DNA of 64,000 nucleotides. Origin: Hirudinaria manillensis (Eukaryota; Annelida; Clitellata; Hirudinida; Hirudinidae). Positions 3,601 through 13,838 of the stretch are shown here, in pieces; the first letter of the stretch is position 1; each line of letters opens with the position of its first letter. The stretch is taken from positions 9,441,629 to 9,505,628 of the forward strand of contig CM067526.1 of assembly GCA_034509925.1 (NCBI GenBank), in the 5' to 3' direction. The notes beneath the pieces were generated by a model that was given only the letters and a program-made list of their open reading frames with translations, was not told where the DNA came from and made no database searches. The position numbers and the translations under genes are program-made.

Positions 3601-6600
3601 TATTTGGTTGACCACGTCATCCCATTGGTTTCAAGCACCTTTGTAGATGTTAATTTCATTATGTTCTGCCTACGCCAAGGTGATCAGGTTTCTTCAAAGG
3701 TTCTTTTTTTCAAGAGAACACGAGCACTAACTCGAACTTCTGGCTCTATTAACATAACGCATGAACACAATGTTATATGAAATTTTAAACACTACAATGT
3801 CTGTCTGTCTGTCTTATTTGTTTGGAAATGTTGTTACCCTTTGCAATTTCATTGTTTCTTCTCCAGATGCAAAAGCAGAAAATTTTGGCTTATCTTTTAC
3901 CTGCTTGATGCATTTCTTTGATCTATCAGGCAACATTTTGAAATCTCTGCAAAGTTAAAAGATATGCATTTTTATGATGCAATAACCATTAACAAATATC
4001 ACAATTGCCAGAGTTACTATTTTCAAGAAATAGAGATCAATTGGTGCAATGGTGCAATAATGTTTTTATCTTTTCACATTTATAGCACAACTACTTTGGA
4101 ATAGGTACCAAAGAGTATTAATATCATACATGAGGTATAAAATGGCTGCTTAATTCATTTCAGTTTGTTGATGCAAGTGTGATTGAAAGACACAATTTTA
4201 TTAAAATTTTGCATTATTGACAATTTTTGAAACCATCAAGGTACCAATAAATGCTATTATTTTAGGATTTGACACAATCACACCATAAAAGGAACATTAT
4301 GAGGGGAGTTAAATTTAAAATTAGGAAAGAATTTTAGCTGTTAAATTGAGTTGCAACCCATTTCTGTATCAAGTACATGCCAAACTCAATTAAAGAATTA
4401 TATGTGCTAATGATCACCACCTCAATGAAATGTAGTCATTAATCAGCAGGGCCATTTAATTTTCATTTCAGTGATAATAAAAGAACGAAATATTTAATGG
4501 CTAATGAAAAATTGGTGTTCCTTGGCAAGGAGGATGAGGTTTTACCAATGGTAGAAACTGTGCAGTCTCTTTTGAGCAGTCTTAAAGAAAAGCAGGCAAC
4601 TATTAAAATTGCCGGTGGGTTCAACATTGTTTGTTTTGGTGAAATTGTGATGAGGATGAGGTGTATTATTGACAGATGTTGTTGTATAAGGAAAAGCAAT
4701 TAAGCCAGAATAACTTAATAACATATAAATGTAATAATATGATGGCCTATATCAACCTACAATCAGTGGGATTTAGTTACTTGGAATGTGCATAAACTTC
4801 ATGATCTGATGGCAATTCCTTACATTTGTTAATATAGGCAGAATTAATTTTGAGTCATAATAACTTGTAATAAATAGAGGGATAGATGGAGGAATGGATG
4901 CGTGGATGGGTTCTTTGAATTATTGGGTATCTTTTTAAGTAAAGAAACCAGATGAAAGAGTGAATTGTTTCTAAGAATGCCTGAAGTATTTTTGTCTTGT
5001 CTTGGTTCAGAAATGACTTTGGCTTTGTCTTTACAGTTCAACTTATTTAGTCACACCTAAAAGATCTTTAACCTAATATCCAAAATTAACCTTTAATGAA
5101 TGGATATCAGTTTTAAATGGTTTAAAACAATATTACAAAACATATTCTGGATTTGATCATTCTTATTAATGAGTAATATTTTAAATGGAGATTTTGAACT
5201 CCTATTTTACTTAAGCTAATAGTTTTATTTGCTAAATATTTGAAAATTTCCCAAATGATATTTTAACAAGAGCATCATGATTTGTAGGAATAACAGAATC
5301 ATATTTTAGGGAAAATAACAGTGATTTGAAGGAGGAAATATCAAAGTTTGAACTTAGCAAAGTATTTGCCATTCATTTCAAAACTGACAGAAGTAGGTTC
5401 CTTCACAATGCATATGCATTGTCATTTTGTCAGTGACATACCTATATAACATAATAAATATGTTTATAAAATAAATAGTAATTATTATTATTATTATTAT
5501 TATTTGAGTGCAGTGCAGTAATTTTCATTTTCCATTGGCAGGTACCAAACAGACATTGTTGTCATACATGTTTCTCACATCTAACTCTGAAGCAGATAAA
5601 TTTCCTGAGTTGATAAAAGACGTTTTGATGAAATTCTCAAAGAAGAAAGTTATTAGCTGCACTGATTTGTTTAGAAAAGTTGATGTGGAAAATGGAATCA
5701 TGACAGATGAATTGCTAAAGTCAATCAAGTCAAAGTTCCAAACCGATCAAGTAAAGATAACTTTTGGTAAGCTATTTACATTTGCATGTCTTTATAATTT
5801 GACCTTATATTCTAGTTGACTAATTGAACTCCAGTTTTAGCTGGAAATCATTTATCATAATAAATATTTTACTTTATGATATATTTTTCAATATTGGCAG
5901 ATCTAATTGATATATTTTTGATCATTAAATTTGAATTCTGAAGATAGCAAAGCAAACGCAATCGTTCTTCAGGGAAGGGAGAAGTTTTTTGATTCTATTG
6001 TGCAAGCAATAAATGATGTAATCATTGAGGAGAACAGTGTAAGCTAGATGCCAATATTTTGAATATGTTTTGATGTCATGTGTCATTGACCCAGTTCTTA
6101 GTTCAACGATATTATATATCATAGCATATATCACAGCATTATTTGATCATTTAATGTAAGTTAATTAATGGAAGAAAAATTTTAATGGTTACATAAAATT
6201 GAAAATATGTCTGATGACAAGGGTCTAGCCAAACAAAGGAAAGTTGACATGAACCAGCCATTAAGGCAAAAGAACCTTCCAGAATTTCTCAGACTAATTG
6301 GACATGAGGACATTTATGCACCTGATCACTGGTCGACCTTTGCTGGCAACCTTAGAAATGTTTCAAACAACAAAGGTACTCAAATGCTTATTAATCTTAC
6401 AAAATATGAGAAAATCAGGAATACAATTTTTGTTTTTTTTTATTAAGTGCAGCTTTTCTTGTAAATGTTTCATTAAATTTTCATGACCAACAATGCAACT
6501 ACAATTCAGTTCCTTGAATTAAAGTGGCATCACTCTGAATCTTTATGTAATGAGCAATTAATTCTAACATCATAACTTTCTCCTGTAGGTGCTATTGTAC

Positions 6601-8148
6601 CCCTTCTCCCTAGTTCAGAGATGTACAAATACATCCTCAATATGGTCAACCAAACATGGAAATTTGGAGTTACTGGAGTTGGAAGAGATGCTTCCAAACT
6701 GCACCACAGGTAAGCATACACACTAACTTGTTGAAATGTTGTAAAAAGCTATTGTTTAATCATACTTGACATTACTAAAATATCAAGTATTTTATAATTT
6801 TCAGAAACATAGAAGTTGCTAACATCTACTCAGTAGAAAATGTTTTTCAATATAAACGATACATGACCAGAATTAAGGAATTCTGTCTGCAGAACAGTGT
6901 TCCTGGATTCAAGTCATTGGATAACAAAACAGGATCCCCTATACTTACCAGAGGTAAGCTTTGCAGGTCTCACTTTGCTTGTCTTGCAGGTTGGGCTCTC
7001 AGGAAAGGTTATCTAGTGCAGTGGTAATGGAATTACTTGTCATGAATTATGCTCAGCATGCACCATCAAGGAGCCCTTGTTTTGTTGTAATCATTTTATA
7101 TTAAATAAAAATAATGACTTTGAATTAGTTAAAAATTTAATAAATAATTTTGACCACGCTTTTGACAATTTTGGTGTTGTAAGGAAATGAATTTGGGTGA
7201 AATGGAAAACATATCACAAAATGATTATTTTAAGCTACTGCATAGGATGCAGATTATTTATTTTATCACATGTTTAAATTAAATAAATTGTTAAATCCAT
7301 TACACATTTTAACTCAGGAGCAGCTGATGCAGCTGGAATGTCTAAACTTCTTTGGGAAATAAATGAGTGCCACCTTTTCCATGGAACGAGACTTGAAAAG
7401 AAGGATGCAATCATTGATCAGGGATTGGACTTTAGACTTGGAAGTCAGCATGCTCTCTTTGGACAAGGCATATATTTTGCAGAGAGTTCAACCAAAGCTG
7501 ACCAGTATGCAGGTAAAATATCTGATGATTGCGCAATGAAGATAAGACTTCTAATTTGAAGTTAAGGAAATTAAGTGCTTTTTAATCAGGTCAATCTTGA
7601 GATCTGAGAAACTTTGATAACAATGAAATAGGAAATTAAAATAAAATAAAAACAAAATATGGAACAATAATAATAAATAAAAACAAATGGAAACTCTAAT
7701 TCCCACTGAATTTCAGTGTTACTACATAACTTTACTACTGGCCTTTTTAAAAACAGATTCAAGAGAAGACAGAAGTGCACCTGGAGACAACTTGTACATG
7801 TTTGTGGCAAGGGTCTTCCTGGGAAAGATGTATGAGGCCACTCGACCAGAGGCTTTCAAAAGACCACCTTGTGATTTTCCTGGGTGTTTTTCAGACAGGT
7901 GTTCTGTCCATCCACTGAACGATTCTGTCCTTGGCACACACACTACCACTTACACTCTGACGCATTACAATGCTCTCACCAGTAAGTTGAAAACATTGCA
8001 AACCAGTACTTCCCAGGCTGCTGCTGTGGAAACCCAGAAGATAACAAAATTGCTAGAGGATGTGCGACCCCTTTTGTTCAGAGAATTTGTAGTTTATGAT
8101 CATGCCCAATGCTTTCCTGAGTTCCTTGTGGAATACAAAAGAATCTAA
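680..8148 (+). CDS. KH-like / PARP-catalytic protein (ADP-ribosyltransferase), 5' partial
   Basis: Exons: 680-733, 971-1230, 1443-1708, 2584-3055, 4472-4614, 5542-5766, 5944-6038, 6222-6375, 6589-6709, 6805-6953, 7318-7512, 7757-8148. They give 841 codons plus stop, with all phases consistent. The C-terminal ~260 residues are a PARP catalytic domain. The NAD-binding triad is present: H668 in HLFHGT, Y699 in GQGIYFAE, and E821 in REFVVYD. An H-Y-E triad is known from poly-ADP-ribosylating enzymes. The N-terminal half shows repeated KH-like alpha/beta segments, a layout reminiscent of the PARP14 middle region; this is weaker. Exon 2584-3055 holds a serine-rich linker with an internal duplication. 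The exon 6/7 junction is ambiguous: 6038 to 6222 in phase 0, or 6036 to 6230 in phase 1. Transcription converges on CMTR1. The true start was not identified. Confidence 0.85.
1262..1322 (+). repeat. Intronic direct repeat, copy 1
   Basis: A block of about 61 nt, starting acaattttgttgtca, recurs almost exactly at 2139-2203. It begins about 30 nt after exon 971-1230. Confidence 0.8.
2139..2203 (+). repeat. Intronic direct repeat, copy 2
   Basis: Near-identical to 1262-1322 except for a few extra bases near position 15. Offset is about 880 bp. It lies in the next intron of the PARP gene. Confidence 0.8.
5480..5504. repeat. (ATT)n microsatellite
   Basis: Perfect ATT repeat, immediately upstream of the PARP exon that starts at 5542. 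Confidence 0.95.
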
Positions 8149-8880: not shown

Positions 8881-11800
8881 TCACGGGTCGAGATCTGTCA
8901 GATATTGGAGCAGAGATTCTTGTCTGTTATCTTTACTCCAAATCCAAAGAAAGGAATTTTTCAAGCATTGAGAATAATTGGCAATGGCTCCCTCTGGCAC
9001 TTCAAACACAGATGTCCTCTTCAAAGTATGAAAAAAATATTCTTTCTGACGACTTTGACTCCAAGCTGTCATCCAAGGCTCATTGATAACTTTAACAAAA
9101 CAGATGCCATGTGGCACTATATATCTTTCCTCAGTGCTTGAAACTGGAAAAAGACGTGACTTGATGTGATTCTGCCCTTTATCCATTTCGAGTTCAATCT
9201 TTTGAAAGAATTCCTCCCCGATATTTTCCAACCCGCAAGTATTTTTTACATGGTATTTCAATAAATCATGTCTTCCTTCTTTGATCATGCTGCTCAGAAG
9301 AAGGGAGATAAGATGATGTCTTGATTCAAATGAGCGTCCGGAGAGATCCTTTCCATACCACATCAGGACGTCATTGACGTGAATGGCTGCCATTCTTTTT
9401 CTACTTCTTCCCTCCTTTTTCTAATTAAAACACAGAACTCTATTATTTATAAACAATAGTTAATATAAACTCCAGATAAATATTCAGACAACATGGCTAC
9501 CTCCCCTCTTTGTTCATCAACAAATTCAACATCGAGTATGGTGTCTTTTGGAAGTTCCACGTTATCGCACGACTCCCAAAATCCATCCGTCTGCTTATTT
9601 ATCAATGTTCTGTGTGCAATACCCTTTCCTGAGCCCATGAGAAAATATCTTTTTTTGCTTGAAATTGGCAAAACCACAAAATCCCTTTTCACTTTGATTA
9701 AATGGTCCATATTCCCAGCATCCAGGGATACAGGATCATAAAATTGAAGAGAAGGCTAGGAATGACATTAATGATGTTGCAATAAATTAGTCACCAATTT
9801 ATGCATTTTAATAATCAGCTTTGAAGTCAGTTGGACCCTTTCATTGCTAGTCCTTTACATTACCTACATTATTAAAATATAATACCAATACCTAAATACA
9901 GGAAGGCAAGAATGTCATGCCATGTCCTCATAAATGCAAAATTAAAAATGAATGAATTGCAAATCATGAATATGAATTCTTACCTGAACAAGTCTATTGA
10001 ACTTTGTCGAAGGATATTCGCGCAAATACAAATCTTTCTTTTGCATGTCTGGGATACACCACTTTTCAAGGCAGGATTTCCTGATACTAGTCTGTTTTGA
10101 ATCAGCAAGTGTCTTATTCAGAACAAATGTCTTGATCTTCATCAATGACATAATTTGTAAATCTCCTAATTTGTTGTTAGAGTCTTTCATGTAGTTGTAA
10201 AAGGACTCGTTTTTGGTAAGTAACTGTATAGGAACTATCTCTGAAATTGCCTGTTTGGAATCTTTATTTCCAGGATATATCTCTGACATTCTGTTGTTAA
10301 TCTGACGAAAATATTCTTTGACATCATCACAGTTGCCTTTCTTACCTTGGCATATTATGTATCTTTCTGAATTAGCAGGCCGACTTGTAACAGGCTTAAA
10401 AATGGCAATTCTTTCAAAACAACAACTCATGAGATAGACCAATCCAACACTAAATGGAGTAAATAAATCAAATAAATTTGAAACAAAATTTCCTCCTTCT
10501 CTGAGTACCAAGAGGGACACAAGAAACTGACAAAGATAAAGTCGATGTGACAAAATCTCTTGAATATTTTCCTGACCCTCAACAGAAAATCCCTAAATTA
10601 TAATAAGATTGACTTATTAGAGTGATACATATCATCCTTATTAATGGGGATTTAAAAAATTCATGTCATGTTATTTTGAAATATGTTTAAAACAGATTCA
10701 TTAGATCATTTAGTTATGTAATATTATTTTACTAACACCATCTGCCATAACCAAGTGGACTCCTCTGTTATTTGTGTTCTTCATAACAAATTCATGAAAG
10801 CTCCACTGGTTTCCATCATCATAAATATTTCCATCACCTGTGACACCTGCATTGCAAAAGATTGAAAATATTAATTCATTTTAATAGTTTGTATTTAATT
10901 TCCTTAAAATATATTAATCATAAAATGCAAATATTTTATGCAAATGTATTTATTTATATAGTAATTAATTTATAAGGCATCATATGCAATTTTTTTTCCA
11001 TGGGGTTTCATTCATATTCAAATTTTGCTCTACAAATATATTTATTAAGTGAGAACAGAGGTATGAAATAATTGAAACGTTGGGCAATTACATGCTACGG
11101 TTTTTCAGAAAACTAGACAAAATGTAAAATTTTAAGCCCCTGTCCCAACCTTATGACATGCACTGTAGTGAGTCAATTTTGCTAATCATACTTGTTCATA
11201 TTAATATTCATGCAAACTGTATCATCAGGACTCCAGTAATAGTCAATTTGAAATATAATATAGACAGAAATCACATCATTAAGGATATGTCTTAAGTGAT
11301 ATATTTTTGAAACATCTTAACACTACACAGAGGTTTGTGATCCCTAAATTAAGCAGTTGATTACTTAATATAATGCTTAGCAAACAATTAACTCACCATA
11401 ATGAGGTTGAAACATCTCAGGAGGTCCTGCATTAAAATCATGAAGTTTGAAGTCATTCTCTCCCTTCAGCGTAAATCCAAACCCTCGACAAATTCCACTT
11501 TTCTTCCACAGGACGTATTCACTGAAGCCTCCAGGTCCGGCACAAACATCAGCAAATGAGAACAACTCGTCTTCTTCAATCAAAGATGAATTTTCATCCT
11601 CAAAACTTCTCCTTGGATTTGTGAACATGAAGTCAAACACAGCATCCATGTTTGCCATTTTCATGGCAGCCCTTTGAAACAAACCTTGGTATTAAAATTT
11701 TATTGATATAACTCATATTGATGATTTACCTGTTTTGAAAGAAGGCTGACTTTATTGACTCAAAAGGATTTGATCTTGTCCTTGCCTGCCTCATTTCCTC

Positions 11801-13225
11801 GGCATCAACAACATCAAACACTGACTTGCTGTTAAGAATTCCTTTCAATATCTCTGGATCACAGAACGTTGTCTCATCATCAATAGTCAACTTGACTTGA
11901 CTTTCTTTCATCCATTCTTCCAAATCTTGATTGAAATAAATCAACAAATAATTTAAATTAATAAATAATCTTTTAAATTAAGAAATACCATAGACAAGAA
12001 TTACCTTCTAAATCCAGCTGATGATTCTCATACCATGCAAGCTGCTCACAACTTTGTAACTCTTTCTCCTCTGCTTCAAAGTTCCACCCAACATTGGAAG
12101 ATCCCTCCAAACCCTCTTTTGCTAGGAGACCCAAGCCCCTTCTCCCTTTCTGTTTGGAAGCCTCAATCGGTTGGACTATTCCCTGCTCTCGTTTCCCAAG
12201 ACCTTTGCCTTCTTTAAAGCCCATTTTTTTCTAAAGGTATCGACAACACTTATGAATAAAACTGAGTTAATTATTTAATCTGGTCAATGATTTTATTGGT
12301 CTATAACTTAAACATTTACAACTTAGTGCTTTGAACGAATCTGGGGAAATACCATTAGATTTTTCGATATGTTGCTGTAATGGGCATTTTGTGAGGAAGT
12401 TTCTGTTTCTGATTCAACAACATATTTCGACTTTTTGTTTGGTGGACCTCCTGATGTGAACATATATGATTATTGATAATTGTTTATTAATGTTGACTTT
12501 AAAGCTATTTTACGGTCCATCTATCTAGAATCTAGACCTGAATATAGAAGGCGCCCTTTTACACAATTACAAATCCTTATTATTTGACTTGGACATAGTC
12601 ACGCCTGTAAATATTTGCTTGGATGCTGTTAGATCTAATAATTTTAATAACGAAAAGCCATTACGACAGCTAAATAGCAAACCTTGTTTTCTGACAAAAT
12701 AGTAAATAATTGTGCTACATAACCGATAAAACCCTTGCTTTGTATGCCAAAGTAAAACATGTAATGTAGCTGTCATTTGAGTCACTCATGTTAACAATGT
12801 GTGAAGTATTTGCAAATCTTTTAATTAACTTTAAAAAAAGTCAAATCATGTCAGAATTTCAGTATTTAATTTCTACTAGCCATTAATAATATCCTTGGTT
12901 CTTTTAGGTCCACAGTCTTGATCTGATGGTGTGGTTTCTGATTCTGAGTCATCACTGCTCAGGGTATGCATGACTGAAATGGGTTAAAAAATAGGTTACA
13001 GAATGATTTGCTCCTTTCATTTTCGAATATAAAATATGTAATTTTATACATTTGTTCTGCTTCTAATATAGGTTTTTACTGTCAAACCTATGTTCTTGTG
13101 AATGGTTTAATCTCATAAAAAAAATCATGAAATAACTGATTATAGTCAAATACGGTAATATATTTTAAGATGAATGTGAAATCATCTTTCGTACCTTCTC
13201 TATTATTCGGAAACCGCGAATCCAT
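8881..13225 (-). CDS. CMTR1: Cap-specific mRNA (nucleoside-2'-O-)-methyltransferase 1
   Basis: Minus-strand exons: 13225-13195, 12450-12353, 12230-12005, 11925-11730, 11671-11397, 10846-10737, 10592-9984, 9755-9471, 9420-8881. They give 789 aa; human CMTR1 is 835. Cap-1 methylation of the first transcribed nucleotide of mRNA, nuclear. Order: short acidic N-terminus; G-patch starting [11 protein letters not shown]; RrmJ/FtsJ-type methyltransferase with SAM motif [15 protein letters not shown] and [19 protein letters not shown]-terminal guanylyltransferase-like region; WW-like segment EPWMTAW. Of the K-D-K-E tetrad, K188, D311 and E388 are present, but the position of human K404 is N351 (codon 10478-10476, AAT). 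The first exon lies in a duplicated region with an alternative copy at 13878-13839. Identity is secure; the N-terminal exon choice is less so. Confidence 0.93.
12894..12973 (-). other. Exon-like segment with defective donor in CMTR1 intron 1
   Basis: After a good acceptor (cccatttcag), 80 nt are open in phase 1 and read a Ser/Asp/Glu-rich peptide ([15 protein letters not shown]), much like the CMTR1 N-terminus. After AACCAAG the sequence is gatatt, without a GT. The duplicated copy has caag|gtagag at the equivalent place. Probably a decayed cassette exon. Confidence 0.4.
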
Positions 13226-13838
13226 GTCGGAAATAATTTTGAGCTCCAATTCGTGCCGGAATTGTTTGAGTTTAACATCAAACTTAATATTTTCTTTAAA
13301 CGTCGCTCATAACATCAAACTTCTAAATCTTTAAAAATCCATAAATACATATGATTATCAATTAACTTATTATTAATACAGACTTTAAAGCAATTTTAAG
13401 GCCCATCTCCTGTAACTAAATACAACTATAGAAGGCATCCTTTTACATAATTACAGACCATTATTACTTCACTTGAGCATAATTACATCTGAAATATTTG
13501 CGAAGATGATTTTAGATCTGATAGTTCTGTACTAATATATCTGACAATCTAAAAGTGAAAGTCATCTAAATAGCAGACCCTCTCTTCAGACAAAATAGTA
13601 ACTAATTGTGCTGCTTAAGTACCTTGGCTGCAAATGTAAAACATATTTTGCTGTTATTTGAGTCACTCATGTTAAGAATGTGACAAGTATTTGCAAATCT
13701 TTTAAGTAACTTTTCAAAAAACTCAAATCATGTCAGAATTTCACCATTTAATTTCTACTAGCCATTAATAGTATACTCACTCTACCTTGAAATACAATTG
13801 AAAAGTGTTCTGATATTTTCAGAAGAATCGGAAAGTAC

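Follow-up and report, generated by a model that had tools for sequence, protein, structure and literature searches.

Human CMTR1 (hMTr1, ISG95) is a cap-1 2'-O-methyltransferase in which a G-patch, an FtsJ/RFM methyltransferase domain, a guanylyltransferase-like domain and a WW region follow one another in this order. DHX15 binds to the G-patch, and the interaction with the CTD of RNA polymerase II is reported to require the WW domain (PMC6071836). The catalytic tetrad K-D-K-E, formed in the human enzyme by K239, D364, K404 and E441, is described as strictly conserved among the animal, protist and viral CMTrs aligned in one study, which counts two CMTrs in all for animals generally (PMC9479742). 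In the homologous SARS-CoV nsp16, tetrad Ala mutants showed 0-2% activity, and K170A, a replacement of the second tetrad Lys, had 0% activity at 95% partner association (PMC3102710). K170 has been postulated as the general base (PMC8172916); in an alternative account the base is K46, whose pKa is lowered by K170 and E203 (PMC3102710), so that the lysine is needed under both. For the worm enzyme, K244A at the first tetrad Lys was made as a catalytically dead CMTR-1, and the phenotype of cmtr-1 loss in C. elegans was ascribed to lost methylation (PMC13129544). In the nsp16 and CMTR papers examined the tetrad mutants are Ala replacements, and no Asn test at this position was found there. Among the papers listed in literature searches, judged by titles and the beginnings of abstracts, none dealt with a CMTR1 lacking the Lys, although one may still be in print, and searches for CMTR1 with K404 or with annelid found no work. 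Pairs in which a deficient protein stands beside an active paralog are described from trypanosomes, as AdoMetDC with its prozyme and as deoxyhypusine synthase with its dead paralog (PMC6221367, PMC3663545).

The window analysed here is a stretch of 64,000 nucleotides (C1:9441629-9505628 of a 148 Mb assembly in 23 contigs) and carries on its minus strand a CMTR1 gene, which we call copy A. Like human CMTR1, copy A has the G-patch, the FtsJ/RFM domain, the guanylyltransferase-like domain and a WW-like region in the human order, aligns with it over the full length and keeps K239, D364 and E441; unlike human CMTR1, it has Asn for K404. It also departs from the situation in animals generally in being part of a three-copy CMTR1 family (copies A, B and C). 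With the trypanosome pairs the family would share a deficient protein beside an active paralog, the deficiency of A and C being predicted.

Our model of copy A comprises seven exons from position 12230 down to position 8881 of the window; more 5' exons lie upstream and are provisional, and residue numbering starts at the G-patch exon. Its elements are as follows.

12005..12230, minus strand: G-patch exon, exon 1 of the model (Pfam G-patch 47.5 bits against a cut-off of 22), with acceptor AG and donor GT
11730..11925, minus strand: exon 2, with an open frame, AG/GT borders and alignment to human CMTR1
11397..11671, minus strand: exon 3, with the first tetrad Lys (human K239) and the SAM loop CAGPGG
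10737..10846, minus strand: exon 4, with the tetrad Asp (human D364) close to the exon end
9984..10592, minus strand: exon 5, 609 bases, open, with Asn at tetrad position 3 and with the Glu (human E441)
10476..10478, minus strand: codon AAT (Asn) at the position of human K404
9501..9755, minus strand: exon 6, guanylyltransferase-like domain by alignment to human CMTR1, with GT-AG borders
8881..9414, minus strand: exon 7, remaining guanylyltransferase-like domain, WW-like region and stop

The preliminary description had named this gene CMTR1, which the comparison with human CMTR1 confirms. With copy A as the only query, phmmer matched PDB 8p4e chain O at E 4.5e-189 over query residues 1-717 of 719; among the 8 distinct solved-structure sequences matched, CMTR1 was the best and covered the whole length. 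The PF01728 FtsJ domain scored 118.2 bits in A, 123.8 in B and 123.7 in C, all far above the cut-off of 24.1. A G-patch precedes the methyltransferase domain in A and, at 47.3 bits, in B, and no Pfam G-patch match was obtained for C at E values up to 1; copy C thus appears to have lost the G-patch that copy A retains. The Pfam WW scores of 15.2 (A), 15.2 (B) and 16 bits (C) lie below the cut-off of 26.9, and the region of A aligns with human CMTR1.

The 5' region of copy A is matched at about 98% by that of copy B. A stretch of about 430 bases upstream of A (window 13349-13777) has a 76% match in the sequence upstream of B. This match is out of register with the main one between A and B, and the stretch may be a partial tandem repeat from the 5' region. 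Tail to tail with copy A lies a plus-strand gene (window 6186-8148) with the motifs HLFHGTRL, GIYFAESSTKADQYAG and REFVVYDHAQCFPEFLVEYK, which we take to encode a PARP-type ADP-ribosyltransferase domain. Four pieces of this gene had no match in the 50 kb around copy B or the 40 kb around copy C.

The substitution itself is as the preliminary description had it: an AAT codon at 10476-10478, confirmed on the minus strand, places Asn opposite human K404 while the other three tetrad residues are kept. In the phmmer alignment the Asn sits ungapped opposite K404 of GGHFICKTFDLF, and the MAFFT alignment pairs K239 with K, D364 with D, K404 with N and E441 with E. The spacing of 40 residues from Asp to Asn, likewise noted beforehand, recurs here between D268 and N308 and equals the human one. 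The residue had been numbered Asn351; the residue stands, and its number depends on the provisional 5' exons, being 308 in our model.

Three CMTR1 loci, all on one chromosome (C1), and no fourth were found in the genome. Each of four queries, PF01728, a 121-base DNA piece and the proteins of exons 5 and 7, led to these three; the searches scored only the best candidates, and locus counts are lower bounds. Copy B (C1:9558038-9563714, plus strand) lies about 104 kb from A and is inverted relative to it, and copy C (C1:10619365-10624572, plus strand) lies 1.17 Mb from A. In every copy the seven modelled exons are open, with no internal stop, and AG/GT borders are present at all 6 introns and at the first acceptor; the exon 4 donor and exon 7 acceptor were picked among alternatives by frame and human alignment. 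For exon 7, the same acceptor AG was assigned in A and B, and C carries one of its own at the corresponding position. The proteins are identical at 699 of 734 residues (95%) between A and B, 566 of 730 (78%) between A and C and 561 of 730 between B and C. Intron 4 is 144 bases long in A but 2609 in copy B (C1:9559381-9561989), where it has been lengthened by an insertion. The longest open stretch of the insertion runs to 148 residues, and the insertion is probably a decayed mobile element.

A genome search for a second CMTR1 bearing the Lys, proposed in the preliminary description, leads to copy B, which retains Lys at the K404 position within GGNFVCKLFDLF. Copies A and C have Asn there, giving the tetrads K-D-N-E in A and C and K-D-K-E, as in active CMTR1, in B; the equivalents of K239, D364 and E441 are present in 3/3 copies. 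Through the K404N equivalent, A and C lack an essential catalytic residue while the rest of the domain is retained, as in pseudoenzymes. The SAM loop reads CAGPGG in A and B and CGGPGG in C. Beyond the trio, the FtsJ-family and exon-5 protein searches also matched a gene on C6, read as CMTR2-like, and the FtsJ-family search matched two more FtsJ genes on C5 and C12. Lys is found in the equivalent motif of three other FtsJ-type genes of the genome, with a search pattern that itself demanded Lys; for the CMTR2-like gene, a BLAST alignment free of that pattern likewise places Lys at the K404 position. The Asn is thus real as far as the assembly shows, is present in two of the three paralogs found and is not in the animal's only CMTR1.

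At the site itself, copy B reads TGC AAA TTG (Cys-Lys-Leu) and copies A and C read TCA AAT TTA (Ser-Asn-Leu), a signature of four base differences within 8 bp; human CMTR1 also has Cys-Lys, like copy B. Two bases before the signature C differs from A (GTC versus GTT). The Asn common to A and C within one four-base signature points to more than chance or one wrong base. For window positions 10473-10480, an alternative account is that one base was lost and another gained four bases away, with a single substitution besides; the step from Cys-Lys-Leu to Ser-Asn-Leu would then be a compensated frameshift, not four point changes. Around the signature, the copies group differently from the remainder of exon 5, where A and B agree against C at 84 of the 102 informative sites of the exon.

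10419..10480, minus strand: minimal tract in which 5 informative sites in a row have A=C against B, flanked by A=B sites at 10482 and 10380

A run of 5 A=C sites in exon 5 was reached by 19 of 200,000 shuffles, but significance is lost (0.19) once the four clustered sites are treated as a single event. The case for conversion therefore rests on the signature and on an identity of A and C over 101 bases (10481 to 10381), in an exon in which the two differ at 94 of 609 bases and in which their next longest identical run is 32. Across the same 101 bases, B and C differ at 5 positions, 4 of them the signature; the segment is hence either conserved or was exchanged earlier, and transfer could have run in either direction. 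Taken together, these patterns suggest A-C gene conversion, with either direction possible.

When exons 5-7 are taken together with their introns, no A=C run exceeds one of 6 sites in exon 7, a length reached by 143 of 50,000 shuffles. More A=C runs, together with many B=C sites, occur in exon 7 of copy A (window 8881-9190). Synonymous divergence between A and B, 0-0.05 in exons 1-4, climbs to 0.10 in exon 5 and reaches 0.27 in exon 7. These patterns suggest exchange elsewhere in the three genes too, and repeated ectopic gene conversion within the trio is the simplest reading.

Selection was assessed over the seven modelled exons, where dN/dS is 0.28 for A-C, 0.26 for B-C and 0.20 for A-B. Codons changed in a single copy were compared with an assumed neutral share of nonsynonymous changes (N, against synonymous, S) of 0.76, leaving out gapped codons and the 18 codons at which all three copies differ. 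Changes private to B number 15 N and 18 S (p 1.6e-4) and those private to A 11 N and 8 S (p 0.063, not clearly off the neutral share). For C the count is 141 N and 85 S (p 3.5e-6), which takes in changes on the branch leading to A and B. Copy C is thus under purifying selection. At 136 residues where A and B agree and C differs (human-gapped sites dropped), human CMTR1 has the A/B residue at 49, the C residue at 17 and neither at 70; as the human sequence sides more often with A/B than with C, copy C has evolved faster than A/B.

We assign a probability of about 0.7 to the following reading: B is the active enzyme, A and C are dead or impaired paralogs, and the two share their Asn through gene conversion between them, a role of A as a non-catalytic binder being its least supported step. 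Under this reading, a short ectopic conversion between A and C would have given both the same Asn. Lacking the third tetrad Lys, they would transfer little or no methyl, and B would make cap 1. From the published Ala mutants of the homologous nsp16 we infer that A and C probably have little or no 2'-O-methyltransferase activity. Copy A could still act as a competitor or scaffold that binds cap-0 RNA, RNA polymerase II and DHX15 but does not methylate, because it keeps the SAM loop, the other tetrad residues, the G-patch and a full-length human alignment that includes the WW region. The cmtr-1 loss phenotype, having been ascribed to lost methylation, speaks for methylation as the main role, one that B can fill, and lends no support to a non-catalytic one.

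The nearest rival to this reading is that copy A is a recent duplicate drifting to loss, still intact-looking but unneeded, with a dead active-site segment and no retained function; we regard this as somewhat unlikely. The closeness of A to B at 95% of residues fits such drift, as do the changes private to A, whose departure from neutrality is unclear, but its seven exons carry no stop, frameshift or broken splice site, and its 5' region still matches that of B at the level given above. That A and C remain methyltransferases, with another residue or water replacing the lysine or with a changed target, seems to us improbable. The three other tetrad residues are present in every copy, the FtsJ score of C equals that of B, and C has a Lys seven residues before its Asn (LRKGGNFVSN) that might be thought to stand in; A, however, has Glu and not Lys at this distance, and the residual activity of the nsp16 tetrad mutants cited above speaks against such a replacement.

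Two further explanations concern the origin of the Asn, and both fare worse. If it were ancestral to A, B and C, B would have regained its Lys, either by back-mutation or from a since-lost copy through conversion; two of three copies do carry the Asn, but the Cys-Lys of B is exactly that of human CMTR1, the CMTR2-like gene has Lys as well, and regaining Lys would need several matching base changes, so we hold this highly improbable. Still less weight, indeed almost none, falls to errors in sequencing or assembly or to a haplotype entered in duplicate. The preliminary description had listed a single wrong base and an allele among its options. The former is very unlikely: A differs from B by four bases in 8 bp and the same four recur in C, next to the GTC/GTT difference, which is a strong argument against sequencing error. 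The latter finds no support, and duplication of an allele or haplotig is set aside, since A and B are separate, inverted loci with differing flanks on one contig. Its option of a pseudoenzyme or adapted enzyme is still the best reading, though not for a sole CMTR1, given the Lys-bearing paralog B. Two other ways of recovering the Lys were considered and rejected. RNA editing would have to turn the T of AAT into A or G, which neither A-to-I nor C-to-U editing does, and for an alternative exon 5 spliced in at locus A, the exon-5 protein search gave only the three loci and the CMTR2-like gene.

Carried further, the preferred reading of one active and two impaired copies raises the possibility that A and C persist as regulators that bind the cap or the polymerase. 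In its fullest and doubtful form, CMTR1 would have split into one active enzyme and two K-to-N pseudoenzymes, with conversion passing a dead cassette between them and A, whose G-patch and cap site are intact, acting as a cap-0-binding brake or scaffold that limits cap 1 on chosen transcripts or in the immune response. If the reading holds, one intact and two Lys-to-Asn CMTR1 genes would offer a natural test of CMTR1 roles beyond methylation, since the WW domain (RNA polymerase II) and the G-patch (DHX15) could be tracked apart from catalysis. Short gene conversion could then also move a dead active site between paralogs with the reading frame unbroken. The finding is no hint that the animal is without cap 1, the sequence of copy B being intact.

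Two mitochondrial observations were made alongside. Contig C23, 15.6 kb long and partly N, starts with COX1, whose frame contains six AGR codons, presumably at the usual Ser positions; recognised by eye, what we take to be cox2, cox3, nad6 and later nad1 and nad3 follow, all on the same strand. Such a gene order is that of annelids, and the COX1 looks like that of leeches. A COX1 frame on C9 (C9:3026446-3027786) scores the same as the mitochondrial one (C23:31-1371) and is either a very recent nuclear copy or an assembly artefact.
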